NCBI GenBank assembly: GCA_016200005.1
Contig: JACQFP010000047.1
Coordinates: 1-64,000 of the forward strand
Length of the DNA: 64,000 nt
Reading direction: 5' to 3'
Source: Verrucomicrobiota bacterium
GTDB taxonomy: Bacteria > Verrucomicrobiota > Verrucomicrobiia > Limisphaerales > PALSA-1396
Shown here: positions 34,368 through 52,178 of the stretch, in pieces
How positions within the stretch are numbered: position 1 is the first letter of the stretch
Layout of the letters: the number at the start of each line of letters is the position of its first letter
The notes under the pieces: generated by a model
Seen by the model: only the letters and a program-made list of their open reading frames with translations
Told to the model about the DNA's origin: nothing
The model's database searches: none
Position numbers and translations under genes: made by a program

Positions 34368-37300
34368 ATGAAAACGAAAGCCATCAGCTTCACCCTCGGT
34401 TATCTGCTGGCCGCCTCTCTGGCCTGCCACGCCGCGGAATCGCTTCACCCGCTTTGGCAAATTGGCCAGGCCGATCAACGCGCCGCCGAGTTCGCCCTGT
34501 CGCCCAGCAACTACCCTGCGTTCCTGCAACAATTCGGCAGTCCGGATCACGCCTATTACGTCGGGGTTTCCAAACCGGAAAGCGACTGGCCTTACGTTTT
34601 GCCCGGGCCGTCGGACGGCTGGGGTGGCAGCAGCGGTGGCGGGCGCTGGGATCAGATGAACACGCTGCCGATCGGCTTCGTTCTGGCCCAGGCGGCGACC
34701 GCGGACCACTGCAAGCTCGTCCTCAACATCGCCGACACGCGCCCCGAACGTCCACCACGGCTGCGCATCACGATCAACGGAACGGTTTTTAATCGCGAGC
34801 TGAGTCCGGGAGGCAGCGAAGATTCATTGCGCGGCCACTTGGGGTCGGCGAAGCCGCAGGTTGTGGAGGTGGAGTTTCCCGCCACGCTCCTCAGGCCGGG
34901 CTACAACGAAATCGCACTGCGCAGCACCGGCGGGAGTTGGCTGGTGTTTGATGCGCTGCGATTGGAAGTCCCATCAGAGGTCAGGCTCGCTTCGCCAGCG
35001 AACACTGTTATCCGGTCTGTGACAACGACTGCGTATGCGGTATCCGCTAAAAAGAATATGCCCGCGACCATCCGCTTGGAAGTCTTCCGGGCCAGTTCAC
35101 CGGGCAGGCTAAAGGTTGAAGTTGAAAGCGGAGGTTCGCAGGAATTGGATACACAACCCGGCCTGCAGGTTTTTGAAATTCCGGCACCGACCTCGGCGCC
35201 AGGGAAGGGCACGCATTTCCACGTGAGCGCCGACGGCCAATTGCTGCACGAATCGCAATTGAACTTGCGCGCATCACCGCCCGCCGCACCGGCCGATTAC
35301 GTGGACGTGTTCAAAGGCACGGCCCATTCGCGCTGGATGATTGGCCCCGGCCCATCGCTTCCGTTCAGCATGGTCAAAATCTCTCCCGACAACCAGACCG
35401 CCGGTTGGTGTTCGGGCTACGAGTATTCAATCGAGCAGATTGATTGCTTCAGCCACATCCACGAATGGACGATGGCCGGGTTGGGCATGATGCCGACCCT
35501 CGGCCCGCTACGCACTAAACCGGGCCTTGACGGTACCGGGTACAGCTCACGTTTCAACAAGGTGACGGAGCGCGGCGGCATCGGCTTTTACGAGGTGCTG
35601 CTCAAAGACACGGGCATTCGCGTCGCGTTGACCGCCTCTACGCGCGCCAGCTTGCAGGAGTACACCTTCCCGGCCAGCGATCAGGCGCGGGTGATTTTCG
35701 ATTTCGACATTCCGACCGAATACAAAATCCATGTGCTCGACGCCAAGGTGCGCCGCACCGGGCCGGCGGAGATTGAGGGCACGATTCAGACCGATGTTCC
35801 GGAAGTTCATTACAACGGCGATCAGCGCTATGACCTTCACTTCGTCACCCAATTCAGCCGGCCTTTCGACAGCCTTGGAGGATGGCAAGAGGAGGAGGTC
35901 TTTTCCAACGCCCCGTCGCTCAAGCTCGTGGGCGACTGCGGCGCATTTGTGGAATTCAAAACGCGCGGCGCGGAAAAGGTGCTGGCGCGCACGGGCATCT
36001 CCCTCGTCAGCGTGGCCAACGCGCGCTTGAACCTGGAGCAGGAACTGGCCAAGCCGTTCGGTTGGGACTTCGCGGCCGTGGTTCAGAATCAGCGGCGCGT
36101 TTGGAACCAGATTTTCGACCACGTGGAAATCCAGACGCCCGACGCGCGCGAAAAATGCCGCTTCTATTCGAACCTTTATCGCGCGTTGTCGGGCCGGAAC
36201 ACCTGGAGCGACGTGAACGGCGAGTGGACAGATCCCGACGAACGCACTCAGAAGCTCACGGACCCGGACACAGTCATGCTGGGCTGCGACGCCTTTTGGA
36301 CCACGTTCTGGAATATGAACCAGGTGATGAACCTGCTCGCGCCCGAATGGTCCGCCCGCTGGGTGAAGTCCGAGCTTCAGCTTTATGACAAGTGCGGCTG
36401 GTTATCGAAAGGCCCCGGCGGCTTGGAATACATCAGCGTCATGGTGGCCGAGCACGAAATCCCGCTGATGGTTGCCGCATATCAGCACGGCGTCAAAGGC
36501 GTGGATCGCCAAAAAGTGCTGGAGGCGGCGGTCAAAATGCAGACGACGTTGCCACAATTGTATCCGGGTGGTGGTGCGGTCGGCAACGAGAACCTGGAGA
36601 ATTACCTGAAGCATGGTTACGTGGCGAGCGACGGGCCTGTGGTGCAAGGCAAGACCAAAGGGGAATGGCGAATGGCGTGGGGTTCCAACACCTACGAGTA
36701 TTCCTACGACGACTGGTGCGTGGCGCAACTCGCTCTGGCGCTCGGACGCAAAGACCTCGCCGAGCAGTTCCTGAAACGCTCGCGGAGCTGGCGCAATAGT
36801 TTCGATGTGGAAACCGGTTTTGCGCGACCGCGCAAGGCGAACGGCGAATGGGTGACGCCCTTTGATCCCTATCACACGCCGGGTTTTGTAGAAGGCAACG
36901 CCTGGCAATACACCTGGTTCGTGCCGCAGGACGTGCCGGGTTTGGTGAACGTCATGGGCCGCGACCGTTTTGTTAGCCGGCTGAACGAGGCGTTTGAAAA
37001 ATCAGCTCCGACGCGCTTCAACGCCGCGGGCGAGCGCTTCGCCGACTTCCCAATCAATCAGGGCAACCAAACCACGATGCACGTCGCCTGGCTGTTCAAC
37101 TGGGCCGGACAACCCTGGATGAGCCAGAAGTGGGCGCGGGCAATCCTCGGCGCCTATTACGGCCACAATCCCGCCGACGCCTACCTCGGTGACGAAGACC
37201 AGGGGCAGATGAGCTCCTGGTTTGTAATGTCTTCGCTCGGATTGTTCCAGACCGATGGCGGTTGTCGCGTGAATCCGATTTACGAAATCGGCAGCCCGCT

Positions 37301-37538
37301 TTATCCAAAGGTCGTTCTCCATCTCTCCAAGGAACACTACGGCGGGAAGACCTTCACCATCACTGCCAGGAATGCTTCGAAACAAAACCGCTTCATCCAA
37401 TCCGCCCGGCTCAACGGCAAACCACTGAACCAGTGGTGGCTTCGGCAGAAAGAAATTCTGCAAGGCGGGCGCCTGGAACTTGAACTGGGTCCGGCGCCAA
37501 ACAGGGAATGGGCGAAAGGGTGTCCCTTGCCGGACTGA
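34368..37538 (+). CDS. GH92-family alpha-mannosidase with N-terminal carbohydrate-binding domain
   Basis: From the ATG at 34368 the protein has 1056 residues with a signal peptide ending in His-Ala-Ala. Residues of about 25-210 resemble the beta-sandwich binding domain of rhamnogalacturonan lyases, opening with Leu-Trp-Gln-Ile-Gly. The GH92 part starts near 310 with Val-Asp-Val-Phe-x-Gly-Thr and has Gly-Asn-Ala-Trp-Gln-Tyr-Thr-Trp-Phe-Val-Pro (about 842) and Glu-Asp-Gln-Gly-Gln-Met-Ser-Ser-Trp-Phe (about 943), the conserved calcium/catalytic region. GH92 enzymes are calcium-dependent exo-alpha-mannosidases acting on mannans or N-glycans. Secretion places it in the periplasm or outside. Confidence 0.93.
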   Translation: MKTKAISFTLGYLLAASLACHAAESLHPLWQIGQADQRAAEFALSPSNYPAFLQQFGSPDHAYYVGVSKPESDWPYVLPGPSDGWGGSSGGGRWDQMNTLPIGFVLAQAATADHCKLVLNIADTRPERPPRLRITINGTVFNRELSPGGSEDSLRGHLGSAKPQVVEVEFPATLLRPGYNEIALRSTGGSWLVFDALRLEVPSEVRLASPANTVIRSVTTTAYAVSAKKNMPATIRLEVFRASSPGRLKVEVESGGSQELDTQPGLQVFEIPAPTSAPGKGTHFHVSADGQLLHESQLNLRASPPAAPADYVDVFKGTAHSRWMIGPGPSLPFSMVKISPDNQTAGWCSGYEYSIEQIDCFSHIHEWTMAGLGMMPTLGPLRTKPGLDGTGYSSRFNKVTERGGIGFYEVLLKDTGIRVALTASTRASLQEYTFPASDQARVIFDFDIPTEYKIHVLDAKVRRTGPAEIEGTIQTDVPEVHYNGDQRYDLHFVTQFSRPFDSLGGWQEEEVFSNAPSLKLVGDCGAFVEFKTRGAEKVLARTGISLVSVANARLNLEQELAKPFGWDFAAVVQNQRRVWNQIFDHVEIQTPDAREKCRFYSNLYRALSGRNTWSDVNGEWTDPDERTQKLTDPDTVMLGCDAFWTTFWNMNQVMNLLAPEWSARWVKSELQLYDKCGWLSKGPGGLEYISVMVAEHEIPLMVAAYQHGVKGVDRQKVLEAAVKMQTTLPQLYPGGGAVGNENLENYLKHGYVASDGPVVQGKTKGEWRMAWGSNTYEYSYDDWCVAQLALALGRKDLAEQFLKRSRSWRNSFDVETGFARPRKANGEWVTPFDPYHTPGFVEGNAWQYTWFVPQDVPGLVNVMGRDRFVSRLNEAFEKSAPTRFNAAGERFADFPINQGNQTTMHVAWLFNWAGQPWMSQKWARAILGAYYGHNPADAYLGDEDQGQMSSWFVMSSLGLFQTDGGCRVNPIYEIGSPLYPKVVLHLSKEHYGGKTFTITARNASKQNRFIQSARLNGKPLNQWWLRQKEILQGGRLELELGPAPNREWAKGCPLPD

Positions 37539-37753
37539 TCGGCAAGTAGCGAAGTGTGCTTGGGAAGAGCAAGGCCGTGAGTGGGTTGAACTTGCAAGCT
37601 TGCTCGTAGGCTCAGTCGCTTATACGCGCGGACGCGACTAGTTCGTGGATCATCCCTTTACGCTCGAACTCGCGGGCTTCGGAAACACCGCTCGAATTGC
37701 CTGAGTTGAATTTTCCAGATGCTTTCTCAATCCCAAACCGTTAATCTCCCGCC

Positions 37754-39907
37754 ATGCTGATCCGGCTGATCTTCATCGTCGCGTTGCTTGTCGCAAAGCC
37801 AGGCCCGGCCCGCGGCGATTTCTACGTCGCGCCGGCCGGCACCGATGCAAACCCCGGCACAAGATCAAAACCGTTTGCCACGCTCGAACGCGCCCGGGAT
37901 GCGGTGCGCGTGCGCAAGGTCTCCCAAAGCGCATTTCCGGAAAAGACCACCATCTGGGTGCGCGGCGGCGACTACTTTCGCACCAATGCATTTGAACTCA
38001 CGACCGCGGACTCCGGCACCACCGACGCCCCAATTAGTTGGTGCGCTTACAAGAATGAACGCGTTCGCCTGCTCGGTGGGCGCACCTTGACGGGCTTTGC
38101 GCCCGTCGCTGATGCGAAGGTGCTCGCGCGACTTGACCAGCAGGCGCGCGGTCAGGTGGTCCAACTCGACCTCCGCGCGCTCGGGATCACGAATTTCGGC
38201 GAAATGAAATCGCGCGGCTTTGGCCGGCCCGCGGTGCCGGCGCATTGCGAGCTGTTCTTCGACCACCGGCCAATGACGCTCGCCCGCTGGCCGAACGAGG
38301 GTGAGTTCGCCAAGATCGCGGGTTACCCCGCGGCTTCTGACCGCAAGGATGAACACGGCGGCAAACTCGGCGAATTGCCGGGCGGTTTTCTCTATTCCGG
38401 GGATCGTCCGCGCCGTTGGCGGGACACGAGCGATCTGTGGGTTCACGGTTATTGGGCCTACGACTGGGCGAACTCCCACGAGAAGGTCGCTTCTCTCGAT
38501 GTCGAGCAACGACTCGTCAAGACTGCGCCGCCGCACGGGAATTACGGTTTTCGTAAGGACCAGCGGTTCTATTTCCTCAATGTGCTGGAAGAACTTGATC
38601 AGCCGGGCGAGTGGTTTCTCGATCGCAAAACAGGCGTGCTTTATTTCTGGCCGCCAAAAACCGACGCGGCGCAAATGGGCAAGCGAACCGCTGCCGCCGC
38701 GCGTGAAACCGTCCTCTCTCTGCTCGACCAGCCGCTGCTCAGGCTCACGGACGTTTCGCATGTCAATTTCCAAGGTTTCGCACTCGAAGCGACGCGCGGC
38801 AACGCCGTCGAGATTCACGGCGGGACGAGTAACCGAATTGCGGGTTGTCTCATCCGCAATGTCGGCGACAGCGGCGTGGTGATGGCCGGCGGCACGGGTC
38901 ACGGTGTGGTGAGTTGCGACGTGTTTGACACGGGCGACGGAGGCGTGTCGTTGACGGGTGGCGACCGCCAGACGCTCACACCTGGCGGACACTTCGTCGA
39001 GAACTGCCACTTCCAGCGCCTGGGCCGCTGGTCCAAATGCTATGTGCCGGCGGTGGCGATGACCGGCGTCGGCCTGCGCGCGTCGCACAACCTCATCCAC
39101 GACCATCCGCACTGCGCAATCCTGTACTGGGGCAATGATCACGTGATGGAGTTCAACGAGATTCATCACATCGCGCTGGAGACCGGCGACGTGGGCGCGA
39201 TCTACACCGGCCGCGACTACACGTTTCGGGGGAACAAGGTCCGCTACAATTTCATTCACCACACCGGCGGGGTGGGGATGGGTTCTATGGGTGTTTACAT
39301 GGACGATTGCGTCAGCGGCACGGAAGTTTTCGGAAACGTGTTCTACAAAGTCCACTGGGCCATGTTCATTGGCGGCGGGCGCGATCACCGCGTGGAGAAT
39401 AATTTGTTTGTGGATTGCGATCCGGCGGTGCGCGCCGATGGCCGCGGCCTCGACAAATCGCCCGTGTGGCATGGCATGGTGGACGACACGATGCGCAAGC
39501 GGCTCGCCGAAGTGCCGCTGGCGCTCTATCGCCAGCGCTATCCGGAAATGAAGTCACTCGACCGCTATTACGGCCCGCCCGAAGGCCCGGCGATTACCGG
39601 CGAAGCGTTCAAGGGCGTACCGCCGGACGACAACGTGGTCGTGCGCAACGTCTGCGTCGGCAAATGGCTCGAAGCCGGCTGGCACGCAACGGCGGGGATG
39701 TTGCGACTCGAAAACAATCTCACGAACGCGGCGTCGAGTCTGATTGTGTCACCCAACGAGCAGTCGCGCGCGCCGGACTTCGAGTTGAAGAAGGATTCAC
39801 CAGCCTGGGCGTTGGGGTTCCGGCGCATTCCCGTCGAGCAGATCGGCCTGCGCGAGGATGAATTGCGTCGCGGACTGCAGCGCTTATCTGGTGCGGTCTC
39901 GCCATGA
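37754..39907 (+). CDS. Secreted right-handed parallel beta-helix protein
   Basis: The 717-residue protein has a signal peptide ending near residue 20 and begins with Asp-Phe-Tyr-Val-Ala-Pro-Ala-Gly-Thr-Asp-Ala-Asn-Pro-Gly-Thr, the usual start of PbH1-type proteins from glycan-degrading bacteria. Residues of about 330-560 contain many Asn/Gly-ladder repeats such as Asn-Arg-Ile-Ala-Gly-Cys-Leu-Ile-Arg-Asn and His-Asn-Leu-Ile-His-Asp. Polysaccharide lyase, epimerase or GH120-like activity is possible; GH120-type xylosidases share this fold plan. It follows the GH92 gene after 215 bp without recognised features. Upstream and downstream gaps hold nothing else. Confidence 0.82.
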   Translation: MLIRLIFIVALLVAKPGPARGDFYVAPAGTDANPGTRSKPFATLERARDAVRVRKVSQSAFPEKTTIWVRGGDYFRTNAFELTTADSGTTDAPISWCAYKNERVRLLGGRTLTGFAPVADAKVLARLDQQARGQVVQLDLRALGITNFGEMKSRGFGRPAVPAHCELFFDHRPMTLARWPNEGEFAKIAGYPAASDRKDEHGGKLGELPGGFLYSGDRPRRWRDTSDLWVHGYWAYDWANSHEKVASLDVEQRLVKTAPPHGNYGFRKDQRFYFLNVLEELDQPGEWFLDRKTGVLYFWPPKTDAAQMGKRTAAAARETVLSLLDQPLLRLTDVSHVNFQGFALEATRGNAVEIHGGTSNRIAGCLIRNVGDSGVVMAGGTGHGVVSCDVFDTGDGGVSLTGGDRQTLTPGGHFVENCHFQRLGRWSKCYVPAVAMTGVGLRASHNLIHDHPHCAILYWGNDHVMEFNEIHHIALETGDVGAIYTGRDYTFRGNKVRYNFIHHTGGVGMGSMGVYMDDCVSGTEVFGNVFYKVHWAMFIGGGRDHRVENNLFVDCDPAVRADGRGLDKSPVWHGMVDDTMRKRLAEVPLALYRQRYPEMKSLDRYYGPPEGPAITGEAFKGVPPDDNVVVRNVCVGKWLEAGWHATAGMLRLENNLTNAASSLIVSPNEQSRAPDFELKKDSPAWALGFRRIPVEQIGLREDELRRGLQRLSGAVSP

Positions 39908-40106: not shown

Positions 40107-41054
40107 ATGAAACCAGTCATCCAACGTCATTCCGCCTTCGGGAGAATCTCCAGACGCGGGTTCCTGAGAGCGAGCGGAGCAACGGTGGCAATCATCTCTG
40201 CCGCTGGCGCTTTCTCCGCAGAAGCCCAGCCCACGACGATTTTACCGTCTCCGGCAACCGGCAGTCCAAGCAAGCCAGGCGACACATACGAAACCCAAGC
40301 CAAGGGCATTCGCATTTTGCCCGGACAATGGCGGCCCCATTATCCCTGGGAGCAGATTGCGTGGATCAGCCCGGCGTGGCCCAGCCAGGATTACATCTGG
40401 TTGGATTTTCCCGAAGCGATCTTCACCAGCCAGGGACTCCTTTATTTGAGCCACGTGAATCCGGGGATCGATGCCGTGTTCCCGGATTTGCCGAAAGTGC
40501 CGTGGCGAGAAGTGCCGAATGGAATCGCGTTCGATCGGCAACTGCCCAACGGCGTAAGTTTCGGCGGAAGCGTGACGAAGCAAAACGACACGCGCGTTGC
40601 GCTCGAGTTGCATCTCAAGAACGGCAGCGCCCGGCCCCTAAGAAACATTTCGTTGCAGACTTGCGCGTTTCTGCGCGGCATCCGGGAATTTTCCGACTAC
40701 ACGCGCGACAACAAGTTTGTGCATGTGCCGGAGACGGGCTGGATTCCGTTGAGTCAGGCGGTGACACTGAAAGGCGGGTCGAGTCCTTACCGGGTCGGCT
40801 GGCGCACCAGTGGCAAGCCGGTGGCAGACTGGCCCGTCATGGTCACGCGCTCCAACAAAGTTGAGCGTTGGGTCGGCATGACCTGGCACAAAGACACGCT
40901 CTCACTGATCGGCAATCAAAATCACCCGTGCATGCACGCCGATCCAAAGTTCAAGGATTTGGAGCCGGGCGAAGCGGTGGTCATTCATGGGACAATCTTT
41001 TTCTTCGAAGGCAAGCTGGCGGACTTTGATTTTGCGAAAGAGGCAGGGGTATGA
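40107..41054 (+). CDS. Tat-exported protein of unknown function
   Basis: The 315-residue protein has a twin-arginine signal (Ser-Arg-Arg-Gly-Phe-Leu-Arg near residue 15) and a beta-rich mature part with many Trp residues (Trp-Arg-Pro-His-Tyr-Pro-Trp, Pro-Ser-Gln-Asp-Tyr-Ile-Trp-Leu-Asp-Phe-Pro-Glu) and a C-terminal Asn-His-Pro-Cys-Met-His-Ala-Asp. No family was recognised, but it resembles the beta-sandwich proteins often exported with glycan hydrolases. It is the first of four genes joined by start-stop overlaps (40107-47035), so it is probably co-expressed with the GH172 enzyme. The Tat route suggests a bound cofactor or metal. Confidence 0.7.
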   Translation: MKPVIQRHSAFGRISRRGFLRASGATVAIISAAGAFSAEAQPTTILPSPATGSPSKPGDTYETQAKGIRILPGQWRPHYPWEQIAWISPAWPSQDYIWLDFPEAIFTSQGLLYLSHVNPGIDAVFPDLPKVPWREVPNGIAFDRQLPNGVSFGGSVTKQNDTRVALELHLKNGSARPLRNISLQTCAFLRGIREFSDYTRDNKFVHVPETGWIPLSQAVTLKGGSSPYRVGWRTSGKPVADWPVMVTRSNKVERWVGMTWHKDTLSLIGNQNHPCMHADPKFKDLEPGEAVVIHGTIFFFEGKLADFDFAKEAGV

Positions 41055-42742
41055 ATCGCCTACCGCAGCCGCGCGGCTCGTCCCTGATCAATAAACCAGA
41101 GATGAAAACGAAACCCCCTCCAACCCGTGCGGTTCCGGCAGTAAATCCTACTCAGGCTCCGGTCGGTCCTGTTCCTTTGGAACTTTGGCAACGGGGTTCG
41201 CGTGGTGCAAATCGCGAGCCAGGATGGCGTGGAGCACGCTGGCCGACGGTGCTCGCAGTCACGCTGCTCACGCTTGTCGGTGGGCGCGCACAATCTGTCG
41301 CGACTGGCCCGAACGTCCCAAATCCGGGCGAAAACCCGCTGCGAGCGCTGACGCAATTGACTGATGCCCAAACCCGGCGCGTCTCCAGCACGAATCCTGA
41401 CATAAACAGCAACGGCGATTCCCGTGTCATCAAGGAAGGAGAATCGCTCGTGCTCGCCGAATTGACCGGGCCGGGCGCGATCACGCACCTCTGGAATACG
41501 GTCGCCTCGCAGAACCCGTTCTCCGGCCGTTCACTCGTCCTGCGGATTTACTGGGACGGCATGACGAAGCCGAGCGTTGAAACGCCGCTGGGGGATTTCT
41601 TCGGCGTCGGCCACGGCGCGATTGCCAACTTCCATTCGCTGCCGGTGAGCGTCTCTTCGTACGGGCGTTCGCGGACTTGTTTCTGGCGGATGCCGTTTCG
41701 CAAGAGCGCCAAGATCACCCTGAGCAACGAGGGGAGCGGGTACGGTGACGTGGAGGTGTACTACTACGTGGACTGGGAAAAGCTGCCGAGTCTACCGGAC
41801 GAGTCGCTCTATTTCCACGCGCGGTATCACCAGGCCTTTCCCGCGACGCCCGGCGAATACACCATCCTCGACACGAAAGGCCGCGGGAACTACGTGGGCA
41901 CGGTCTATTCGGTCCACCAGATGAAAACCGGCTGGTTCGGCGAAGGCGACGATCATTTCTACATTGATGGCGAGTCGCGGCCATCGTTGTGCGGCACCGG
42001 CACCGAGGATTATTTCAACGACGCCTGGGGCTTCCGTCCGTTCGCCGCGCCTGCGCATGGCGTGACCTTGTATGAAGGCGTTTTCGCCGGCGACCGGGTC
42101 AGCGCGTATCGCTGGCACTTGTCCGATCCCGTGCGCTTCCGCACCGCGCTCAAGGTTTCCATCGAACACAAAGGCAGCTCGGTCACGGACGCGGGCGTGC
42201 AGACGTCGTCATCCAACGAACGACCGGACTGGGTGAGTTCCGTAGCCTTCTGGTATCAAACGCCGCCGGTGGCGGGCGAAGAACCATTGCCACCGGCCAC
42301 GAACCGCATGGCCCCGTATCGCGTGCTGCCGGCCAAAGTCCTGACCTTCCGCGCCAACCCGTCGGCGCTCGTGACCCAGGAAGAAGAAGGTTTGATCTAC
42401 GCGCCGGGCCAGCCGGACGCGGAGATCGAGTTTGATTTCGAGGTAAAGGAACCGGGTCGCTATCAGGTTGCGGCGGTCATGATCTTATCGCTTTTCAGCG
42501 CGCGTTATCAGCCCTACCTCGACGGCGAGGCCACCGGTCCGGAACTTGACCTGTGCAATGCGGGCGATGATTGGACCTGGTTCAGCTTCGACCTGCACGA
42601 CCTGACGCCGGGCAAACACACGCTCAAGTTCGCCGGCCGCGGCGCCTCGCCAAATCGGCGAACCAAAGCTCCGCCGCGTTTCGCCTTCGGCCTCAACTCG
42701 CTGGTCCTGCTTCGCCTCGAAGACATGGCGGGATACAAATGA
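41051..42742 (+). CDS. GH172 / DUF2961 glycoside hydrolase
   Basis: The 563-residue frame begins at the ATG of an ATGA overlap with the previous gene; an internal ATG at 41102 is an alternative. A hydrophobic segment at about residues 62-80 could be a late signal or membrane anchor. The DUF2961 core is clear: Asp-Gly-Glu-x-Arg-Pro-Ser-Leu-Cys-Gly-Thr-Gly-Thr-Glu-Asp-Tyr-Phe-Asn-Asp-Ala-Trp near residue 310, plus Gly-Pro-Gly-Ala-Ile-Thr-His-Leu-Trp earlier. GH172 members act on fructofuranose or arabinofuranose glycans. A C-terminal beta-sandwich follows at about 440-560. The stop overlaps the next gene (ATGA). Confidence 0.9.
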   Translation: MNRLPQPRGSSLINKPEMKTKPPPTRAVPAVNPTQAPVGPVPLELWQRGSRGANREPGWRGARWPTVLAVTLLTLVGGRAQSVATGPNVPNPGENPLRALTQLTDAQTRRVSSTNPDINSNGDSRVIKEGESLVLAELTGPGAITHLWNTVASQNPFSGRSLVLRIYWDGMTKPSVETPLGDFFGVGHGAIANFHSLPVSVSSYGRSRTCFWRMPFRKSAKITLSNEGSGYGDVEVYYYVDWEKLPSLPDESLYFHARYHQAFPATPGEYTILDTKGRGNYVGTVYSVHQMKTGWFGEGDDHFYIDGESRPSLCGTGTEDYFNDAWGFRPFAAPAHGVTLYEGVFAGDRVSAYRWHLSDPVRFRTALKVSIEHKGSSVTDAGVQTSSSNERPDWVSSVAFWYQTPPVAGEEPLPPATNRMAPYRVLPAKVLTFRANPSALVTQEEEGLIYAPGQPDAEIEFDFEVKEPGRYQVAAVMILSLFSARYQPYLDGEATGPELDLCNAGDDWTWFSFDLHDLTPGKHTLKFAGRGASPNRRTKAPPRFAFGLNSLVLLRLEDMAGYK

Positions 42743-44478
42743 AAGGCAACCCGCAATTTGAATTGTCTTTGCAGAAATCTCTTCCGCTCCTCGTTGTCGG
42801 TTCGCTGCTCGCCGCATCGGCTCACGGCAGAACCGGCCCGGCCACGATCTGTTACTCCGCGCAACCGAACGCGTATTTCAACGACCACGCCGCCGAGATC
42901 AAAAAAATCTACGACGGCTTTTTCTTCACGGTCGGAAGTTGGGAGGATTGCGCCGAGCGGTTTATCGGAGCCGGGGGAAAAGAGCCGAAGGCCAAATCGT
43001 GGCTGGAGACGGCGCGGGCGAATCTGGGGGCGCTGCGCCAAGCCGGCGTTACGGAGAACTTTCTGACGGTTTACTTCTCGGACAGTGGGGAATGGCCTTC
43101 CCCGACCACTCTGCTTACCGAAGCCTATACGCGGAAAATGGCGGCCGAGTTTTCCGCCATCGGCACGGTGGCCCGGCAATTGGGCTTTCGCGGCGTCTGC
43201 GTGGATGTCGAGTATCCCTTTCCTCGTTACTCGATTGACCACAAGATTTACACCTACACCAATTACACAGTCGGCGACTTGTTGGCCGCCGCCCGCCGGC
43301 AGGGTTACGAATGCGCCGCCGCGTTGCTGGATGCCTTTCCCGCCGCGCCAGTCATCATTCTGCCAGGTTACCTGCGGGGCCGGCCCATCGGACGCGCCTA
43401 CATGCTGGGCATGCTCCAAGCGATGGCCGATCGCGATGCTCCGGGTGGTTTCCATCTCGGCACGGAATACACCTACTGTCTGCACGACCCGGTCACCGCG
43501 CTGGCGACGACCCGGTTTGAAGACCCCGGCATACCCAATCTGACCGATGCCAGGACCGCTGACTATTGGCGACGACGTTGCACCATTGCCCCCGGCGTAT
43601 GGCCGACGCACATGATCGAAACCGGCGGGAAGGATTATCCGCCGCAGCCGTGGAAACAGGAGATCGCCGAGTTGCGCGAGCAGATGGCCATTCTGCGCGC
43701 GACTTCCAAGAAGTATGTCTGGTCGTTCTCCGGCCTACCGTCCTGGTATGTTCACACGCCCGAGTTGGAGAAGAAGTACGGGCTGACGAGACAGGACTTG
43801 AAGCGGCCGGACATTGACTTGCGCGACTGGCATCAACTCCTGACGGTTAAACCCGAACTCAAATCCTCGCCGCTCCAACCGCTGTTAAACCAAGTCCGAC
43901 GGTTTGATCGCGGGCGAGTTTCTGGCGAGGAACTTTGCGATGCCTTCGGCACGCCCGGCCGATGGTGGGTGCTGGGTCTGGTCGGCAACCCGCACACGCA
44001 GCCGCAATTTGCAGTGATGGAAGCGTTCCAAGCACCGATCAACCCGCGCACGGCCTACAATGGGAGGGACGGCGCGATCCGTTGGTTCGCTTACGACAAT
44101 CTCGACCCGCGCGGCGTCACCTCATGTGTTGGCGTCTTCGATTACCGGAACACGGACAACTCCGCCGCGCACTTCGTTTCATTTGTGCATAGTCCGTCCG
44201 AGCGGCGCGCGTTTCTGCACACGGGCTGGGACGACGGCATTTTGATCAAGCTCGGCGATCGGATTGTTTTGGACGCGAGCGATTACCCGCCGCGCGGCAA
44301 AGGAATGCTTTACCTCGACAAACACCAGTTCGAGAAGCGCGTCCCGTTCACGCTGCCCAAAGGCCGGTCGCAATTGTCCGTTACGGACCTCAACTCGCAC
44401 GGCGGCTGGGTATTTTCCCTGAGGATCACCGATGAAAAAAACATCCCCTTCCAGGACGTGCGGTTTCGGCTGGATTAA
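42739..44478 (+). CDS. Secreted TIM-barrel-like protein of unknown family
   Basis: Start ATG 42739 overlaps the GH172 stop (ATGA), giving 579 residues; a longer upstream frame runs over the GH172 gene and is not used. A signal peptide (residues 14-30, Ala-Ser-Ala-His-Gly) is followed by about 400 residues with barrel-like alternation: Gly-Phe-Phe-Phe-Thr-Val-Gly-Ser-Trp, Phe-Arg-Gly-Val-Cys-Val-Asp-Val-Glu-Tyr (a possible catalytic Asp/Glu pair), Gly-Gly-Phe-His-Leu-Gly-Thr-Glu-Tyr-Thr-Tyr, then Lys-Tyr-Val-Trp-Ser-Phe-Ser-Gly, and a C-terminal beta domain. A clan-A-like glycoside hydrolase is plausible but the family was not recognised. Confidence 0.75.
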   Translation: MKGNPQFELSLQKSLPLLVVGSLLAASAHGRTGPATICYSAQPNAYFNDHAAEIKKIYDGFFFTVGSWEDCAERFIGAGGKEPKAKSWLETARANLGALRQAGVTENFLTVYFSDSGEWPSPTTLLTEAYTRKMAAEFSAIGTVARQLGFRGVCVDVEYPFPRYSIDHKIYTYTNYTVGDLLAAARRQGYECAAALLDAFPAAPVIILPGYLRGRPIGRAYMLGMLQAMADRDAPGGFHLGTEYTYCLHDPVTALATTRFEDPGIPNLTDARTADYWRRRCTIAPGVWPTHMIETGGKDYPPQPWKQEIAELREQMAILRATSKKYVWSFSGLPSWYVHTPELEKKYGLTRQDLKRPDIDLRDWHQLLTVKPELKSSPLQPLLNQVRRFDRGRVSGEELCDAFGTPGRWWVLGLVGNPHTQPQFAVMEAFQAPINPRTAYNGRDGAIRWFAYDNLDPRGVTSCVGVFDYRNTDNSAAHFVSFVHSPSERRAFLHTGWDDGILIKLGDRIVLDASDYPPRGKGMLYLDKHQFEKRVPFTLPKGRSQLSVTDLNSHGGWVFSLRITDEKNIPFQDVRFRLD

Positions 44479-47035
44479 AATCAAACTCGAACTGTCGCTG
44501 GCCTTGTTGCTTTGGACGTTGGTCGCCGACGCCGATGCCACTGACGCGGTCACTGTGCGCGTCCAACCGACGCGGGGCGGACCGCAGATCCACATCAACG
44601 GCAAACCGGTCCCGCCACGATTCTTTTTTGGCGTGCCGAGCGCCGGCAGCATCACGATTGATGAACAGTGGTCGGACCACGCATTTGAGTTCACGCCGAG
44701 CGCGGATGTCAAAGCCGCCGGCACGCTCCACTTTCGCTTCGGTCAACTTGCGGGTGAAGTTTGGCTGGCCGACGTGCGCATCACGGACGCGGAAACTGGC
44801 AAGGACGTGATGTCGCCAGGCATTTTTGCTGCCGCGCAAGCGTTCAACGAGGTTTGGAACTTGTGGCCGCCGGGAGAAAAAAACACCGTGGGTCAGGTGG
44901 CGGCGACCAATCGGATGCTCCACGTTAAATTGACCAACCCACCGAACGGCACCTGGCCCGACTTCCACCTTAACAGCCATCTGGGTCTGAGTTTCTCCGC
45001 CAACCGGAAATACCGCGTCACGTTCCGCGCCAAGGCGACGCCGAAGCGGCAGCTCCATCCAGCAGTCTATCAGGTCAGCAACGGCGAATACCTTAACATC
45101 GGCGGACCGCCCGGACCGTTGCTCGCGCAAGTGGCGCTGGCGCGGGATGCGGGCGTGAATCTGGTTTCCTTCAGTGCGCCCAATTGCTGGGCGCCGCCGG
45201 AGCAACCCCAGGATTGGCGGGCGCTCGATGATCTCTGCCGGCAAATTATTGCGGTCAATCCCAAGGTCCTGCTCGTGCCGCGCGTCAGCGCCTACGCCCC
45301 GGATTGGTGGCTGCGGCAGCATCCCGAGGCGCTGATGATTTACGACACCAACCAGCCCGGCCACTTCGCTTCAGTTTCCCATCGCGGTTATCGGACCGAC
45401 GCCGCGGCGCACTTGGAAAAATTGTGCCGGCATCTCACGATAACTTTTCCCGATCACTTCGCGGGCGTTCACCCGTGCGGTCAAAACACGGGCGAGTGGT
45501 TCTATGAAGGCTCGTGGGAACGACCGTTGAGCGGCTACGACCCGGCCACGCGCGAAGCATTCCGCGCCTGGCTGAAGGCGGGCGGCGACGCGGACTTCGC
45601 CACCGCCGAACCGCCGACCGCCGACGAGCGCCGCGCCCATCCCAACGGCTTCCTGCGCGATCCGGCCCGCGAGCGGCGGCTGATTGAGTTCGCGCGCTTT
45701 CAACAACGCGAGATGGCCGACATGGTGCTAACCCTCGCCGCCGCCGCCCGACGCGGCAGCGACGGAAAGAAGCTGGTCGTTTTCTTTTACGGCTATCAAT
45801 TTGAATTCCCGCCGCTCGCCAACGGTGCACCTACCAGCGGGCACTACGCCCTCGCGCCAGTGCTGAAGTCCAAGGACATTGATATCCTCTGCTCGCCAAT
45901 TTCCTATTTCGACCGCGAGTGGCTCGGCACCGCGCCGTGCATGAGCCCCGCCGAGAGCGTCCGCAACGCCGGTATCCTCTGGCTCAACGAAGACGACTCG
46001 CGCACGCACCTCGACAAGCGCACTGTTGAACACGCGCAGGAAGGCGGCTTGGTCAACCTGCGACAGACTCAACAAGTGATGCTGCGGAACACGGCACAGG
46101 CGGCTCTGCGCGGCTTCGGAACGTGGTGGATGGACCTGCCCGGTGCAGGCTGGTTCAACGATGCCGCAATTTGGGAGGAACAGAAACACCTGATGCCCGT
46201 CGAGCGAGCGTTGCTCAAGCGCGCCCGTCCGTTCACGCCGGAGATTGCGGCGATTGTGGGCGAGGACAGCTTTTGTCACCTGACGGGCGGTTCGAGCATT
46301 GCCGCGAAACCGCTGATCTACGATGCCCGCGCTGCCTTGGGACGCTGCGGCGCACCTTACGGGCAGTTCACACTGACGGACGCGCTGGCCGGCAAAGTGC
46401 CCGCGAAACTCCAAATCTTTCTCGCCGTTTGGTCGCTCACATCGGATGAGAGGTGTGCGCTCACCGCCCACCGTCCGCCGAACACGACGCGCGTCTGGTG
46501 CTACGCGCCCGGCTACCTGCTGCCCGACCGCGCTGACATTGCCGCCATGAACGAAGTCACTGGATTCAAACATCGCGCAGTTTCACCCGGCTCGGCGGAA
46601 GCCACGCCAACCGAAGCGGGACGAAAAGTGGGATTGACGAAACCGTGGGGACCGAAGGAACCAATCCTACCGCTGTTCACCGTCGAGGCCGATTCCGCCG
46701 AGACGCTGGCCGTTTACAAGGACGGTTCGCCCGCCGTTGCCATGCGCCGCCGCCTGCGCGGTTTGGACATCTTTCTCGGTGTGCCCGCGCTAACGCCCGA
46801 ACTGGTGCGCGCCTTCGCCCGTATGTCGGACGTGCATCTCTTCACTGAAGAAAACGCCGCCGTCTGGGCGGCGGAGGAATTCCTTTCGATTCAGGCGCAC
46901 AAGACCGGTCCGCTCGTGATTCAAACCGGGCGCACAAGCGCGGTGTCGGACGCCCTCACCGGCGCAAAGCTGGGTCGCGGCCCGTGCCTCACGCTGCCGA
47001 TGGAAACCGGCGAGGTGCGCGTGTTGCGGTATTAA
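44432..47035 (+). CDS. Large secreted GH42-like protein of uncertain family
   Basis: The 867-residue protein overlaps the previous gene by 47 nt. It has a signal-like segment (about 17-36), a beta-sandwich binding domain (40-210), and a TIM barrel from about 215 (Ala-Arg-Asp-Ala-Gly-Val-Asn-Leu-Val-Ser-Phe) with Gly-Val-His-Pro-Cys-Gly-Gln-Asn-Thr-Gly-Glu-Trp, where Glu may be the acid/base. A later part (600-760) looks like the trimerisation-like flavodoxin-type domain of GH42 beta-galactosidases. It ends the overlapped run that began at 40107. GH42-like is the best guess, not certain. Confidence 0.72.
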   Translation: MKKTSPSRTCGFGWIKIKLELSLALLLWTLVADADATDAVTVRVQPTRGGPQIHINGKPVPPRFFFGVPSAGSITIDEQWSDHAFEFTPSADVKAAGTLHFRFGQLAGEVWLADVRITDAETGKDVMSPGIFAAAQAFNEVWNLWPPGEKNTVGQVAATNRMLHVKLTNPPNGTWPDFHLNSHLGLSFSANRKYRVTFRAKATPKRQLHPAVYQVSNGEYLNIGGPPGPLLAQVALARDAGVNLVSFSAPNCWAPPEQPQDWRALDDLCRQIIAVNPKVLLVPRVSAYAPDWWLRQHPEALMIYDTNQPGHFASVSHRGYRTDAAAHLEKLCRHLTITFPDHFAGVHPCGQNTGEWFYEGSWERPLSGYDPATREAFRAWLKAGGDADFATAEPPTADERRAHPNGFLRDPARERRLIEFARFQQREMADMVLTLAAAARRGSDGKKLVVFFYGYQFEFPPLANGAPTSGHYALAPVLKSKDIDILCSPISYFDREWLGTAPCMSPAESVRNAGILWLNEDDSRTHLDKRTVEHAQEGGLVNLRQTQQVMLRNTAQAALRGFGTWWMDLPGAGWFNDAAIWEEQKHLMPVERALLKRARPFTPEIAAIVGEDSFCHLTGGSSIAAKPLIYDARAALGRCGAPYGQFTLTDALAGKVPAKLQIFLAVWSLTSDERCALTAHRPPNTTRVWCYAPGYLLPDRADIAAMNEVTGFKHRAVSPGSAEATPTEAGRKVGLTKPWGPKEPILPLFTVEADSAETLAVYKDGSPAVAMRRRLRGLDIFLGVPALTPELVRAFARMSDVHLFTEENAAVWAAEEFLSIQAHKTGPLVIQTGRTSAVSDALTGAKLGRGPCLTLPMETGEVRVLRY

Positions 47036-47218: not shown

Positions 47219-49183
47219 CTATTGTCCCGAGGAATCGAAGTTAAACTCCCACCGGCGGCTCTCCAGCCAACGGGTCAGGCCGGACTCGCTGGCAACCGCC
47301 TTCCATTTGGCGTCTGCTTCCGCAGCCGGAAGCGAGTGGTGCAGTTCTGTCCAACGCGCCTCGGCTGCCACTCGGAGCGGAACTTTGAACCACCCCCAGC
47401 ACTTGCCGTCGAACCGCGATCCTCGCTCGTAATAGGAGTGAACATACGCCGGCTCAGTCACGAGCCATTCGTAAGCAGTCTCGACCGCGTCCGCAGTTGA
47501 GACCAGCCGCTTCAAGCCGTCGGGGGAATCCGCCGCGGTCTTCTTCGCCTCGAACGCATCGGCAACCGCCGTCGTGAAGTCGAAGCCTTTCTTCAGCCAG
47601 ACGATGCGGCTGCGCACACGCGCGTCCTGCGTCTCGGCCAGCGCCTTCTCCAAGTGGCCGCGCGCCTCGCGGAGGATCGCCGTGTCCGCCATGAACTCCT
47701 CCGGTGTGAGGCGGTCCAGGCCCTCGAACCACTTGCCCTTCCGGGGCCGTGTCCAGTAGCGCTCGCACGCGTCGTGAAACGCCCGCATGGGGGCGGCCAC
47801 GTCGCCGAAGCAGTCGCGGTGGAACTCGTCGAGGACGCGATCAACATCGGTGCTGGCATCCCATTGAAGCCGCGCGGCCACATAGTGCATCGGCCCGCAC
47901 CAGGCCCAGAGCGGAAACGACTCACAGTAGATCGCCCGCACGCCGTTCCGGGCGGCGAACCGTAAATCCTCGGCGGCCAGGTGCGGCGACGTCCGCGGCG
48001 TGTACCAACCGAGACCATAGTAAACGTACGTGTGCAAGTTCTTCGTGGAGCCGTTCCAGGCGCGGATCAGCGCGCGATCCTTGTCGAGGTAGGCCGGGTC
48101 GTAGTGTTGCAGGATGTCGAGTGTCAGGGCGACCAGCACATTGTCCGGCAGGCGCGTGCGGTTGCGCGGCGGTTGCTCGACGTTCCAGTAGGCAAAGACG
48201 CCGAGGTAGCGGCCGGGGTGCGACTGCGCGACGGCCTCGGCGACCTTCGCGACATAGCCAAAGTAGCTTTCGGAGTACTGCCGCCCGACGGGCAAGTTGC
48301 GGTAGGGCTTGTCCAGAGCGGCACACGTGTCGCACTCGCAATACCGCGAGTTGTCATTGACGCAAAGCGAAAACGTGTCCAACGACGGGTTCTCGTCGAA
48401 GTAGCGGCGTGCGGCCTCAATGCTCAACCGGACGACGTCAGGGTTGGTAAAGCAGGGCTGCGGAGTGTCGCCGGAGTGGCTGCCGCGAACCTGCCGAACG
48501 CCGCTCCGGAGAGCGAAATACTCGGGGTGCTCCTGGCCGTGCTTGGCGACCGAGATGATCGAGGCGAGGTTGTGGCCGAAACCGTGGTGGCGGATTGGAA
48601 TTCGGGCGTCGGTGAGCCGATTTCGCCGGACATAGGCGGCTGCGTCGCGCCCGACGAGGCCGGACCAAAGCCGGTAGGCGAATTGCGGGGCAACGGTTCG
48701 TGTCCGAATCCGCAGGCTCTTCGACTTCGGCACGATCGTGAATTGCGCCTCGGGGTAGTACATGCGGACGCCGAAGTCCTCCAGGAGGATCGTCGCGACA
48801 GCGTTAGCCACCCCGGCAGGTGTCGCCCCCAAGATCTCGATCCCACCTCCGCCGGAGCGCACGTCACCAGCGTCATACGGTGTGCCCGATAGAAGGCTCA
48901 CTTTTGATCCGATTCGGATTGGCGCGCGTTCGCCGGCGGGCGGCGCTTCGGGCACGAGCTCGAGTGCCACGCCGGTCGCCTCTTGCACCGCCCATCGGAG
49001 GTCGTCGGCCGCCTCCTGCTCCATGGCGTGTGCGCCGGGCTTCAGGACGATGACCGCGAGCGAGCGTCCGTCGCGGACGATCTCGATCTCGTCCGCGTTG
49101 GCGGACGACACAGTCGCGCCGCACAGGAGCAGCGCACACGCAACAATCTGACGCGACGAGATACGCACCCCGGACTTCGCCAT
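47219..49183 (-). CDS. DUF4838-family secreted protein
   Basis: From ATG 49183 (an upstream frame start at 49228 runs into a pseudogene) the protein has 654 residues with a signal peptide ending in Ala-Asn-Ala. An alpha-glucuronidase/GH20-like N-terminal domain (Ala-Ala-Asp-Asp-Leu-Arg, then Leu-Leu-Glu-Asp-Phe-Gly-Val-Arg-Met-Tyr-Tyr-Pro) is followed by the DUF4838 core with Ser-Leu-Cys-Val-Asn-Asp-Asn-Ser-Arg-Tyr-Cys-Glu-Cys-Asp-Thr-Cys-Ala-Ala-Leu. This family is common in glycan-degrading Bacteroidetes, Planctomycetes and Verrucomicrobia; activity is not established. It begins directly at the truncation point of the isomerase pseudogene, which suggests arrival by recombination. Confidence 0.87.
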   Translation of the reverse strand: MAKSGVRISSRQIVACALLLCGATVSSANADEIEIVRDGRSLAVIVLKPGAHAMEQEAADDLRWAVQEATGVALELVPEAPPAGERAPIRIGSKVSLLSGTPYDAGDVRSGGGGIEILGATPAGVANAVATILLEDFGVRMYYPEAQFTIVPKSKSLRIRTRTVAPQFAYRLWSGLVGRDAAAYVRRNRLTDARIPIRHHGFGHNLASIISVAKHGQEHPEYFALRSGVRQVRGSHSGDTPQPCFTNPDVVRLSIEAARRYFDENPSLDTFSLCVNDNSRYCECDTCAALDKPYRNLPVGRQYSESYFGYVAKVAEAVAQSHPGRYLGVFAYWNVEQPPRNRTRLPDNVLVALTLDILQHYDPAYLDKDRALIRAWNGSTKNLHTYVYYGLGWYTPRTSPHLAAEDLRFAARNGVRAIYCESFPLWAWCGPMHYVAARLQWDASTDVDRVLDEFHRDCFGDVAAPMRAFHDACERYWTRPRKGKWFEGLDRLTPEEFMADTAILREARGHLEKALAETQDARVRSRIVWLKKGFDFTTAVADAFEAKKTAADSPDGLKRLVSTADAVETAYEWLVTEPAYVHSYYERGSRFDGKCWGWFKVPLRVAAEARWTELHHSLPAAEADAKWKAVASESGLTRWLESRRWEFNFDSSGQ

Positions 49184-49199
49184 GTCGCGTCTCCTCCGA

Positions 49200-49623
49200 T
49201 TACCGATGGGAGTTTGTTTTTCCCGCATGAACGGTTGGATACTCGGTCAGAAGCCTGGCGACAAGAAGAATGCTTCCAACTCTCCACGGAATGACGGAGG
49301 CGCCAAGTTGCGCCGCGAGGCGCGCGAGCGACTCGACGTAGGCGATTTGAAATTCCATGACGGGCACCTCGGCAGCGCCACCCGGCGCGAGGTGCGTGTA
49401 GCCGGCCACGATGTCGCAACGCACCCGCGCCGCGGCCAGCGCGTCCCGCAGCGATTGCAAGAAAGCCGGCGTCGCGTCCAGCGGCGAGAGATGTGGCCGC
49501 TTGCCGGCGAGCATGACCGAGGGGAAGCCCAGCCGGCCGGCGCGCGCAATGAAATCAGGCAGGCTCAAGGTTGCCTGGCCCCCAGAAGCCGGCGTAACTG
49601 ACAGAGAAGAGACTCGGTTTCAT
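49200..49623 (-). pseudogene. Truncated, frameshifted sugar-phosphate isomerase/epimerase
   Basis: ATG 49623 starts Met-Lys-Pro-Ser-Leu-Phe-Ser-Val-Ser-Tyr-Ala-Gly-Phe-Trp-Gly, then one extra G in a G-run (about 49580) shifts the frame. In the corrected frame it continues as Gln-Ala-Thr-Leu-Ser-Leu-Pro-Asp-Phe-Ile-Ala-Arg-Ala and Lys-Arg-Pro-His-Leu-Ser-Pro-Leu-Asp-Ala-Thr, matching xylose-isomerase-like TIM-barrel sugar isomerases. Only about the first 110 residues remain: similarity stops after Leu-Gly-Ala-Ser-Val and the frame ends at 49200, 17 bases from the DUF4838 start. Family members have about 280 residues. Confidence 0.82.
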
Positions 49624-49649: not shown

Positions 49650-52178
49650 TTACGGAGTCGCGACCTCCACGAATCGCTTGCAGCCAAGGACACCCGGGCC
49701 ATCCAGGATCACCGGAAAAACGCCGGCCCTGCAATCCGCCGGGATGTCCAGGATCACCTCACTCGGGATGCGCACTTCACGATTCACATTCAGACCGGGC
49801 GCACGGAGAGTGGCGGTCGCCTCGCGCACGGCACTATTGCTCGCGGCCACAAGCTGGAAATCCAAACGCAGTTTCTGCCCGGGTCGCACAGCGGGCGGTT
49901 CGTTGAAGGTCACTACGGGATGACAACCGCTCTTTCGCAGGACGGCCACAAACCATCGCGAGTCCAGCGTCAGCAGCAGATCGTTAGTCGCCACCTCCAG
50001 CGAAGGGGCGCGAGAGGGACGGGTGTGGTTGACCGCGATGGATTGCGCCTTCAGAGTCTCGACATCGAACACAACGGCGGATTCCACGAGCGGCGCCAGC
50101 CCCGGAATGCGCACCTGCACCGGTCCCAGATGTTCATCCAAGCCGAGGGCCGGCTCACCATCCAGCCCGCTGGGGAACAGCCACGGCTTGTCCGAGTCAA
50201 CGCGCGCGCCCACCAAGGCCCAGTGGTCCGAGCCGCGAAATAGCCGGCAGACGACGCGTTGCGGAGTTGCGGTCGGGTGCTCCTCGACCTCACCCTCAAG
50301 AACGGTCTCTTCCACCGGAAACCGCGCGCACCGCCACTGGCGTTCCCCCTTGCCCGTGCCACCAGCTAGGCCGCTCAACGATCCCCACACCGGACCCAAC
50401 GGGCCATACAGGAACGGACGGTAGTTGGGTAGAGCCACGCGCATGAGCGGAATCTCTCTCGGGCAAAAGCTCTGGAGCGCGCCCTGGGTGTAAGGCGCGT
50501 AGAAATCCACGGGTGCTTCCGTCGTGAGCACTGCCTCCGGGTTCGCCTCCCGCACGGCCCGGCTCACCTTGCTCAGAAGCTGCCGCATGCCGTCATTGTA
50601 AACAAACGGATGCGGATGCTTGTGGGCGGGGTTGTAACACGGCAGGTAATAGAAACCCAGCGAGTCCAGCCGAACACCATCGGCACCGGTCTCGCGAACC
50701 AATTGGCCGCAACGGGCGGCCAGGTGGTCCTGCCATTCGACGCTCGCCGGGCATATATGGTAGAAACCGTGGTCCGTGTAGTTGCCCGTGAGGGATCCAT
50801 TTTTGTTCATGATGGACCAGCGTCGGGCGCGACCATCCTTGGCCAGATCGCTCGTCTCATGGACAATGTATCCCTCGACATAGAACGTGAAATGAAATCC
50901 CTGCTGATGCACGCGGGCGACGCCTTCACGCAGGGCCGGTGCTCCGCCCAAGTCCTCGCGGAGCACGTTGTCACCAGTGGTGTGAATATAACTGAGCACG
51001 CCCTGCGAGTTGGTGGACACCGGAAACTGGCAGCCGCGGTCATGAAAGGCGAACTCCTGATTGTCAACCTGGTCCCGCAAGTAGGCCTCCCACAAATCGC
51101 GAAAACTGTCCATGGGCACCGCGCCCGGCATGAGGGCGCCGCCGCGTTTGCCGAACCACTTGCCGGTCCAACCGTCGGAATGGCGAAACCATTCTGGGAG
51201 CGGCGGCGGGGCGAAAGCCTGAGCGAACCAACTCCGGTATTCCCGCGCCACGGGCCGCCAGTCACCCCGGTAGATTTTGATCCACGCCGGCGGCAGCACC
51301 AGGCTCTGTCCCGGCTGCAATTCTTGCGCTGGAAATGATGTCACCCGCAACAACGCCGAACCGGCCCAGAAACGTTTATTGAGGACGTCCGGGTCCTGGA
51401 TGATCAGCCCGAGGGCGCCGCCCGAATCCGGATCAAACACGGCATGCCATTGCATGGACCATTCATGCGAGTTGCCATAAACGCCGCCTTTGTAATCTTG
51501 GGCCAGGCCAATGTATCCCGCCTGATCCTGCACCGTGGCCAGATTCTTCCGCCGATTTTTTCCCGGCCAAACCCGGTTCAGAAACGGAAAGTCCACCATG
51601 ACCTTCGCCGGCGCGGACCCGACATTGACCACTTCCAACGTCCATGCAGCGCTGCTGGCATTTGTGGCCACGACCTCGAGTCGGGTCTCCCAACGGTTGG
51701 CGGCATCGCGCGAAACCAGCCGGATTCCCCGACCCATGCCGCGTTCCACGCGCGACGCCGACACCACGCGACAGAACCGCGGGTCGCTGATGGTGGCGGC
51801 AATGTCGGCGGGGTCATCTTCCAACTCGAAAGGCCGGATGAAATCTGAATACAACCGGAAAGGGTTCCCGCGATTTGCGTGTTCCTTCAGGTAATCATCC
51901 TGGGTCGTCTGATTTCGCAACGAAGACAGGCAACCGCTGTGCCGATCGAAGACGATCCGCATTTCCGCGCTCTCGATTCCGATCTGATCGGCAGTGTCAA
52001 TGAATTCAATTTGTCGCGCGTTTCCATTTCGATCCGCCGAACTTGCTGCCGCCGGGTTTGCCGAGGCCACCCAAGCTGCCAGGAGTGAAACCAGGGCCAG
52101 CCCGTGGGCCAGAATCCTCGCCAGGCGGTTATCTTTGCCCAAGCGGCTCCCTGCCCCGCTTGGATGCCGCCGGTTCAT
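49650..52178 (-). CDS. Large secreted DUF6259-like / TIM-barrel glycoside-hydrolase-like protein
   Basis: From ATG 52178 the protein has 842 residues with a signal peptide (hydrophobic about 22-40, ending Ala-Ala-Ala). A beta-sandwich (50-300) precedes a barrel (330-600) with Phe-His-Asp-Arg-Gly-Cys-Gln-Phe, Phe-His-Phe-Thr-Phe-Tyr-Val-Glu-Gly-Tyr, Gly-Ala-Asp-Gly-Val-Arg-Leu-Asp-Ser-Leu-Gly (candidate catalytic Asp) and Glu-Ala-Val-Leu-Thr-Thr-Glu-Ala-Pro (candidate acid/base). This plan is like DUF6259 or GH36-related families. The C-terminal 200 residues are beta-rich. It lies 27 nt from the isomerase remnant on the same strand. Confidence 0.72.
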   Translation of the reverse strand: MNRRHPSGAGSRLGKDNRLARILAHGLALVSLLAAWVASANPAAASSADRNGNARQIEFIDTADQIGIESAEMRIVFDRHSGCLSSLRNQTTQDDYLKEHANRGNPFRLYSDFIRPFELEDDPADIAATISDPRFCRVVSASRVERGMGRGIRLVSRDAANRWETRLEVVATNASSAAWTLEVVNVGSAPAKVMVDFPFLNRVWPGKNRRKNLATVQDQAGYIGLAQDYKGGVYGNSHEWSMQWHAVFDPDSGGALGLIIQDPDVLNKRFWAGSALLRVTSFPAQELQPGQSLVLPPAWIKIYRGDWRPVAREYRSWFAQAFAPPPLPEWFRHSDGWTGKWFGKRGGALMPGAVPMDSFRDLWEAYLRDQVDNQEFAFHDRGCQFPVSTNSQGVLSYIHTTGDNVLREDLGGAPALREGVARVHQQGFHFTFYVEGYIVHETSDLAKDGRARRWSIMNKNGSLTGNYTDHGFYHICPASVEWQDHLAARCGQLVRETGADGVRLDSLGFYYLPCYNPAHKHPHPFVYNDGMRQLLSKVSRAVREANPEAVLTTEAPVDFYAPYTQGALQSFCPREIPLMRVALPNYRPFLYGPLGPVWGSLSGLAGGTGKGERQWRCARFPVEETVLEGEVEEHPTATPQRVVCRLFRGSDHWALVGARVDSDKPWLFPSGLDGEPALGLDEHLGPVQVRIPGLAPLVESAVVFDVETLKAQSIAVNHTRPSRAPSLEVATNDLLLTLDSRWFVAVLRKSGCHPVVTFNEPPAVRPGQKLRLDFQLVAASNSAVREATATLRAPGLNVNREVRIPSEVILDIPADCRAGVFPVILDGPGVLGCKRFVEVATP

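Follow-up and report, generated by a model that had tools for sequence, protein, structure and literature searches.

In clan GH-A of the glycoside hydrolases (GH) the acid/base glutamate sits in an Asn-Glu (NE) motif, and the families GH18 and GH25 carry Asp-x-Glu directly after strand 4 of the barrel. GH172 (DUF2961) holds difructose dianhydride I synthase/hydrolase and exo-alpha-D-arabinofuranosidases; in its member alphaFFase1, E270 and E291 are the catalytic pair and W267, D292 and W298 lie in the -1 subsite (PMC8605356), and a 2022 paper reports a connection between DUF2961 (GH172) proteins and the double jelly-roll capsid proteins of viruses (PMC8812541). In GHL10, Cwp19 of Clostridioides difficile has a glycine in place of a catalytic glutamate on strand 7 (PMC5765458). 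Here we describe four overlapping genes (g1 to g4) in a 64-kb window (the whole stretch of DNA that was analysed, contig 47 of a 6.54-Mb genome in 87 contigs), among which a GH172 gene (g2) and a GH42-related gene (g4) flank g3, the gene of a predicted TIM-barrel protein, and g1, coding for a putatively exported protein, comes first. The protein families present point to a host from a Limisphaerales-type verrucomicrobial lineage. We read the locus as a patchwork glycan-degradation operon into which g3, most likely a TIM-barrel glycosidase, was spliced, and assign this reading a probability of about 0.55.

The g3 protein had no Pfam or NCBIfam match in a curated family scan. Used alone as query, it found no close relative beyond its own genome, which has a copy at 85% and a short remnant, both on contig 17; further matches were weak and partial (eight other genomes of the 240 searched in the phylum, 13 others of the 196 in the order), the one other genome of the same family gave none, and a single-sequence pattern search for related loci returned 32 stretches with no relative among them. 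A profile made from the weak matches (A1) traced the family in 29 of 288 phylum genomes, with at least seven matches in two of them, and a scan of genome contigs with a profile that left g3 out (A4) returned 296 pattern stretches, 286 of which were relatives of g3. We analysed 80 of these 286 loci, and 67 of the 80, together with g3, form the 68-row alignment A5. Profiles built without g3 recovered it at 1e-16 (A4) and 1.4e-8 (A5 minus g3). By their record titles, the relatives come from Verrucomicrobia, Kiritimatiellae, Lentisphaerae, Planctomycetota, Armatimonadetes, Sumerlaeia and Zipacnadia. None of the 68 members matched Pfam at E 0.01, and a single one matched one weak, unrelated NCBIfam model; PDB searches with g3 (phmmer and profile) yielded no match beyond chance (profile chains at E 0.73 and 0.93), and a limited open-access literature search found no description of the family.

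In the model predicted from the 68-row alignment (mean predicted local distance difference test, pLDDT, 63.3; predicted template modelling score, pTM, 0.63), model residues 13-308 form eight strands with intervening helices, i.e. a TIM barrel, many of the ten-residue blocks lying at pLDDT 80-97 and some at 46-70. The acids D156 and E158 (strand 4) and E243 (strand 6) are invariant throughout A5, as is Y246 (68 of 68 rows). A further 31 rows found by profile retain D156 and E158 without exception and E243 in 30 cases (all but L021, a short, odd sequence); an aspartate on strand 7 is present in 26 and a glutamate on strand 8 in 27 of them. For the strand-8 glutamate we prefer these profile-found rows because A5 is enriched for it, a Tyr-Val-Trp plus Glu motif having served as the scan pattern. 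When submitted to a VIA search, the model retrieved Cwp19 (GHL10) at rank 1 (Z 15.1, 258 residues, 4.0 Å), followed by GH5, GH42, GH1 and other barrels at Z 13.3-14.8 with no family standing clear; nearly all rows shown are named glycoside hydrolases, and the list says nothing on families it lacks, e.g. GH18 and GH25. The original prediction had proposed that the unfamiliar members of the operon may be new glycoside hydrolase families and had named structure prediction and a search for paired acids as checks. For g3 both came out in favour, with a predicted barrel whose acids stand at strand ends and are kept in homologs, although this copy lacks two other acids common in the family (for g1 the proposal found no support, see below).

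We reason that g3 would be a secreted glycosidase whose pocket, at the C-terminal strand ends, contains D156-x-E158 and E243. Within it, E158 would be the likely proton donor, D156 may act in positioning or stabilising, and E243 could be the second acid. Somewhat short of even odds, we tentatively regard g3 as representing a new glycoside hydrolase family, typified by the strand-4 Asp-x-Glu and the strand-6 Glu, with hundreds of relatives across the Planctomycetes-Verrucomicrobia-Chlamydiae (PVC) phyla, Armatimonadota and Sumerlaeota, at least seven copies in some genomes, and here spliced into a foreign operon by way of its neighbour's start codon and leader.

The two closest loci found, from the same-genus genome G264 (L208) and from genome G260 (L210), have the GH172 gene followed by a g4 relative, and in neither was g1 or g3 found (L208 covers about 1.9 kb upstream of GH172). 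The GH172/g4 joint is an ATGA overlap in L210, at the same place as the g2/g3 ATGA, and a 73-nt gap in L208, where undetermined bases interrupt the g4 frame. DNA homology to L210 covers g2 and the first 51 nt of g3 (to 42789) and resumes in g4 at 44555. The stretch 42743-42800 resembles the L210 g4 leader (MKGN..KSLPL versus MKPN..KSLPL; none of 500 shuffles as good), and its resemblance to the leader of the contig 17 g3 copy is at chance level (132/500 shuffles as good). Judged from the sequences, this suggests that g3 was spliced in behind the old start of g4, and that an ATG within the final part of g3 now serves as the start of g4. Since the homology breaks point to insertion, the couplings are probably recent and give no sign of a shared substrate. 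Synonymous divergence (dS) is 0.39 between the g3 copies, 1.06 and 1.73 for the g1 copies, and 0.64 between g2 and its counterpart in G264; being lower than the latter value, the dS of g3 indicates a copy that is young or gene-converted. The ratio of nonsynonymous to synonymous divergence (dN/dS) between the g3 copies is 0.24.

On contig 17 of the same genome the g3 copy is followed, after 93 nt, by the g1 copy and then by a GH78 gene, with no GH172 gene; GH127, carboxylesterase and rhamnogalacturonase-like genes lie near the pair. The same contig carries on its minus strand (L035:3216-3575) a 120-aa frame that fuses g1-copy residues 12-71 to g3-copy residues 22-57 and is a remnant of another g1/g3 unit. 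We picked 19 GH172 loci among the 86 further genomes of the order that have a GH172 match: g4 relatives adjoin GH172 in two of them, and g1- or g3-family genes are present in none (within the fetched stretch). The 12 loci of g4 relatives are likewise devoid of g1- and g3-family genes, a GH172 relative of g2 was seen in none of ten further g4-relative loci, and only one of the 80 g3-relative loci (L176) has, in its fetched flanks, a protein found with g2. The claim that coupling with GH172 implies action on the same fructo- or arabinofuranosyl-type glycan thus finds no support, given the GH172-g4 pairs that lack g1 and g3 and the contig 17 pair that lacks GH172, and the search for a conserved neighbourhood, which had been suggested as a check, also went against it (g1 and g3 families beside GH172 in 0/19 picked loci of other genomes).

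Ten of the 80 g3-relative loci had no usable gene model, and the other 70 provided 130 neighbours, 107 of them with 200-1299 aa; 47 of these (same strand, gap <200 nt) were scanned. The GH2 barrel was recorded in seven and GH42 in two of the 47, and no neighbour dominates among the 25 of 65 families listed. Another g3-family member, of the typical type with the strand-8 Glu, is situated on contig 41 of the same genome (L230:8189-9451), where it adjoins a hydrolase-like gene amid housekeeping genes.

In the patchwork that we favour, the core of the operon would be the GH172 gene beside the GH42-related gene. The insertion of g3 would have been in frame, behind the g4 start codon and leader of old, so that g4 would now start within the g3 3' end; like g3, g1 would have come from elsewhere, to its place upstream of GH172. 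The GH172 and g4 proteins may remove furanosyl ends and ends of the galactosyl or arabinosyl type, and the C-terminal module of g3, perhaps with g1, may aid carbohydrate binding. Going only by the GH78, GH127, rhamnogalacturonase-like and GH92 genes in the neighbourhood, we infer a plant-wall type glycan, perhaps pectic, as the substrate.

Several observations weigh against this reading. As regards catalysis, g3 has T290 at the site of the strand-7 Asp and G332 at that of the strand-8 Glu, losses that could mean that activity is altered or gone, and we found no activity data for any member of the family. As regards the fold, the pLDDT of 63.3 applies to the whole model, model residues 382-518 fall below 50 (making the C-terminal part unreliable), and a plain Foldseek search puts mainly ene-reductases at the top, with low TM-scores (about 0.3 by query and 0.4 by target); we favour VIA over Foldseek because we suspect the poorly modelled tail of misleading the latter. 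The single-sequence model of g1 reaches a pLDDT of only 34. As regards the insertion, the g3 leader is unlike the g4 leader of L208 (470/500 shuffles as good), and so its capture rests on one relative, L210. The g1 copies (dS 1.06) and the g3 copies (dS 0.39) diverged separately, hence a single joint insertion of g1 and g3 is not shown, and barring gene conversion the two were not copied in one event. That L208 and L210 both lost g1 and g3 is an alternative that we deem less likely.

The replacement, in both g3 copies of the genome, of the Asp on strand 7 and the Glu on strand 8, along with the weak likeness of the C-terminal module to sugar-binding domains, would also fit a non-catalytic barrel (a binding protein or a decayed enzyme) that was retained for carbohydrate binding. 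We consider this unlikely, as D156, E158 and E243 are retained together with the tryptophans W328 and W336, the dN/dS between the copies is 0.24, and another family member (L061) likewise has Gly at the strand-8 position. A diverged member of a known family or clan (e.g., GHL10, GH18, GH25 or clan GH-A), beyond the reach of sequence detection, is to our mind an equally doubtful identity for g3. The VIA ranking, with Cwp19 first and GH5, GH42 and GH1 behind it, would accord with such an origin, and Cwp19 is likewise a TIM barrel with Gly at one catalytic position, although this residue is on strand 7 in Cwp19 and on strand 8 in the predicted barrel of g3. The Asp-x-Glu after strand 4, present in all g3-family rows, recalls GH18 and GH25, but the family has no Pfam match to either, and g3 differs in having Glu on strand 6 with Tyr three residues on. 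The near-complete lack of curated matches (Pfam 0/68, GHL10 included; NCBIfam 1/68, weak and unrelated), the PDB chains at chance level and the structure list with no clear family all speak against a known affiliation. A single pathway for one fructo- or arabinofuranosyl glycan, in which g1 and g3 would be new hydrolase families for that same glycan, would agree with the tight overlaps, the purifying selection on all four genes and the g3-type C-terminal module on a GH172 protein (L004), yet is very unlikely in view of the counts given above (0/19 picked GH172 loci, 0/12 g4-relative loci, 1/80 g3-relative loci within the fetched flanks) and of the contig 17 g3-g1 pair without GH172.

The C-terminal module of g3 was also found in other proteins, among them a GH172 protein (L004), at its end. 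It is alike, by weak profile matches, to the sugar-binding beta-sandwiches of PA14 and of the GH2 N-terminus: the module profile weakly matched RsgI3 (0.0037) and GH2-type enzymes (0.036 and weaker), matches that lie at or below the limit of significance and are mixed with unrelated chromodomain matches.

The coordinates bear out the arrangement of four overlapping genes, with two ATGA joints and one 47-nt overlap. Their third-position G+C (0.70-0.75 for g1 to g4) fits real genes, and dN/dS values of 0.14-0.24 across the six gene pairs tested indicate purifying selection on all four.

Table 1. Positions in the 64-kb window of the four genes and of the features discussed in the text.
Feature	Positions	Strand	Remarks
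g1	40107-41054	+	315 aa; Tat-signal protein; domain from an uncurated family common in its order
Twin-arginine motif SRRGFLR of g1	40149-40169	+	from sequence and TIGR01409
g1 stretch homologous to contig 17 g1 copy	40269-41058	+	79.5% (DNA)
ATGA start/stop overlap g1/g2	41051-41054	+	true g2 start not certain
g2	41051-42742	+	563 aa; GH172 (DUF2961) protein
ATGA start/stop overlap g2/g3	42739-42742	+	
g3	42739-44478	+	579 aa; leader, predicted TIM barrel and C-terminal module; barrel family uncurated
g3 start and leader	42739-42789	+	resembles L210 g4 leader
g3 stretch homologous to contig 17 g3 copy	42825-44477	+	probable insert; 87.8% (DNA)
D156-V-E158 of g3	43204-43212	+	at and just after barrel strand 4; kept in 68/68 A5 rows
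E243 of g3	43465-43467	+	end of strand 6; kept in 68/68 A5 rows
g3 C-terminal module	43939-44475	+	residues 401-579; weakly like PA14 / GH2 sugar-binding beta-sandwiches
g3/g4 overlap	44432-44478	+	47 nt; g4 start codon within g3 tail
g4	44432-47035	+	867 aa; GH42-related protein

The identification of the second gene as GH172 is borne out. The g2 protein matches PF11175 at 3e-81 (272.8 bits against a cut-off of 27; positions 2-235 of the 235-position profile), and in an ungapped alignment its E298 (41942-41944) and E319 (42005-42007) correspond to the catalytic pair E270/E291 of alphaFFase1, W295, D320 and W326 corresponding to W267, D292 and W298; five of the five compared residues are thus kept. 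It is the sole GH172 match of the whole genome. It departs from the family in an N-terminal extension of about 63 aa and in some 160 aa past the profile match. The extension (encoded by 41051-41245, about 190 nt) comprises 63 aa rich in proline and arginine. These first residues (about 63) have no match in the two closest relatives, in which the alignments begin at residue 64 or 69, and for this reason the true g2 start, and with it the g1/g2 ATGA joint, is less certain than the other two joints.

The GH42-like character ascribed to the fourth gene was likewise upheld. The g4 protein matches PF02449 at 2.6e-5 (24.2 bits against a cut-off of 21, across 101 residues only), as do ten of the 11 rows in the alignment of its family, and the family profile retrieves GH42-type beta-galactosidases of solved structure (1.9e-9 at best, at profile positions 207-375). 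E355 (45494-45496) and D522 (45995-45997) are invariant in all 11 aligned rows. In contrast to GH42 beta-galactosidases, only the first part of the g4 barrel aligns, and E355 is preceded by G (seven rows), E (three) or S (one), never by Asn. With the Asn of the clan GH-A motif missing, we term g4 GH42-related and not a GH42 member.

For g1, the signal for export by the twin-arginine translocation (Tat) pathway, as originally predicted, gains support from a TIGR01409 match (18.2 bits against a cut-off of 16.7). Beyond this signal neither g1 nor any of the 16 aligned g1-family members has a curated family match, and PDB searches by phmmer and by profile, which gave nothing or chance-level matches, found no solved relative. 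The domain occurs in 73 of the 196 genomes of the order (E 0.001), 12 of which have it only through short matches weaker than 1e-10 and may be unrelated. D100, E103, H116, R144, C186, C275, H277 and D279 are invariant in the 16 members and D284 is kept in 15; typical members have a different N-terminal stretch from that of g1. The domain shares one open frame with a PhoPQ-related domain in L075 and with alpha/beta-hydrolase domains in L087; less clearly, it goes with a propeller protein whose GH32 match is sub-threshold (L015). We see no clear acid pair and guess, from the fusions, at an accessory and perhaps carbohydrate-binding role. The proposal that g1 is an enzyme, or a new glycoside hydrolase, found no positive evidence.

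Elsewhere in the window, DUF4838 and DUF6259 (GH66-like) genes, coding for candidate glycosidases, lie directly after the operon on the minus strand (47219-49228 and 49650-52265), and upstream of it (34200-39907) a GH92 gene is followed by one for a beta-helix protein that matches the GH141 insertion domain below threshold. A row of genes for a NuoF-like flavoprotein, a pyrroloquinoline quinone (PQQ)-type propeller and a 4Fe-4S protein (20040-26125) makes up a redox cluster; an N6/N4 DNA methylase (8265-10958) and a GmrSD-type restriction endonuclease (52686-54710) are encoded as well.

The locus cautions against deducing a shared substrate from gene overlap: both the ATGA joints and the 47-nt overlap seem here to be insertion-made and are not necessarily the mark of a long-standing partnership. 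Should g3-type barrels prove active, several hundred unnamed proteins would gain a function; they come, by record title, from bacteria of gut, rumen and water that probably live on complex glycans.

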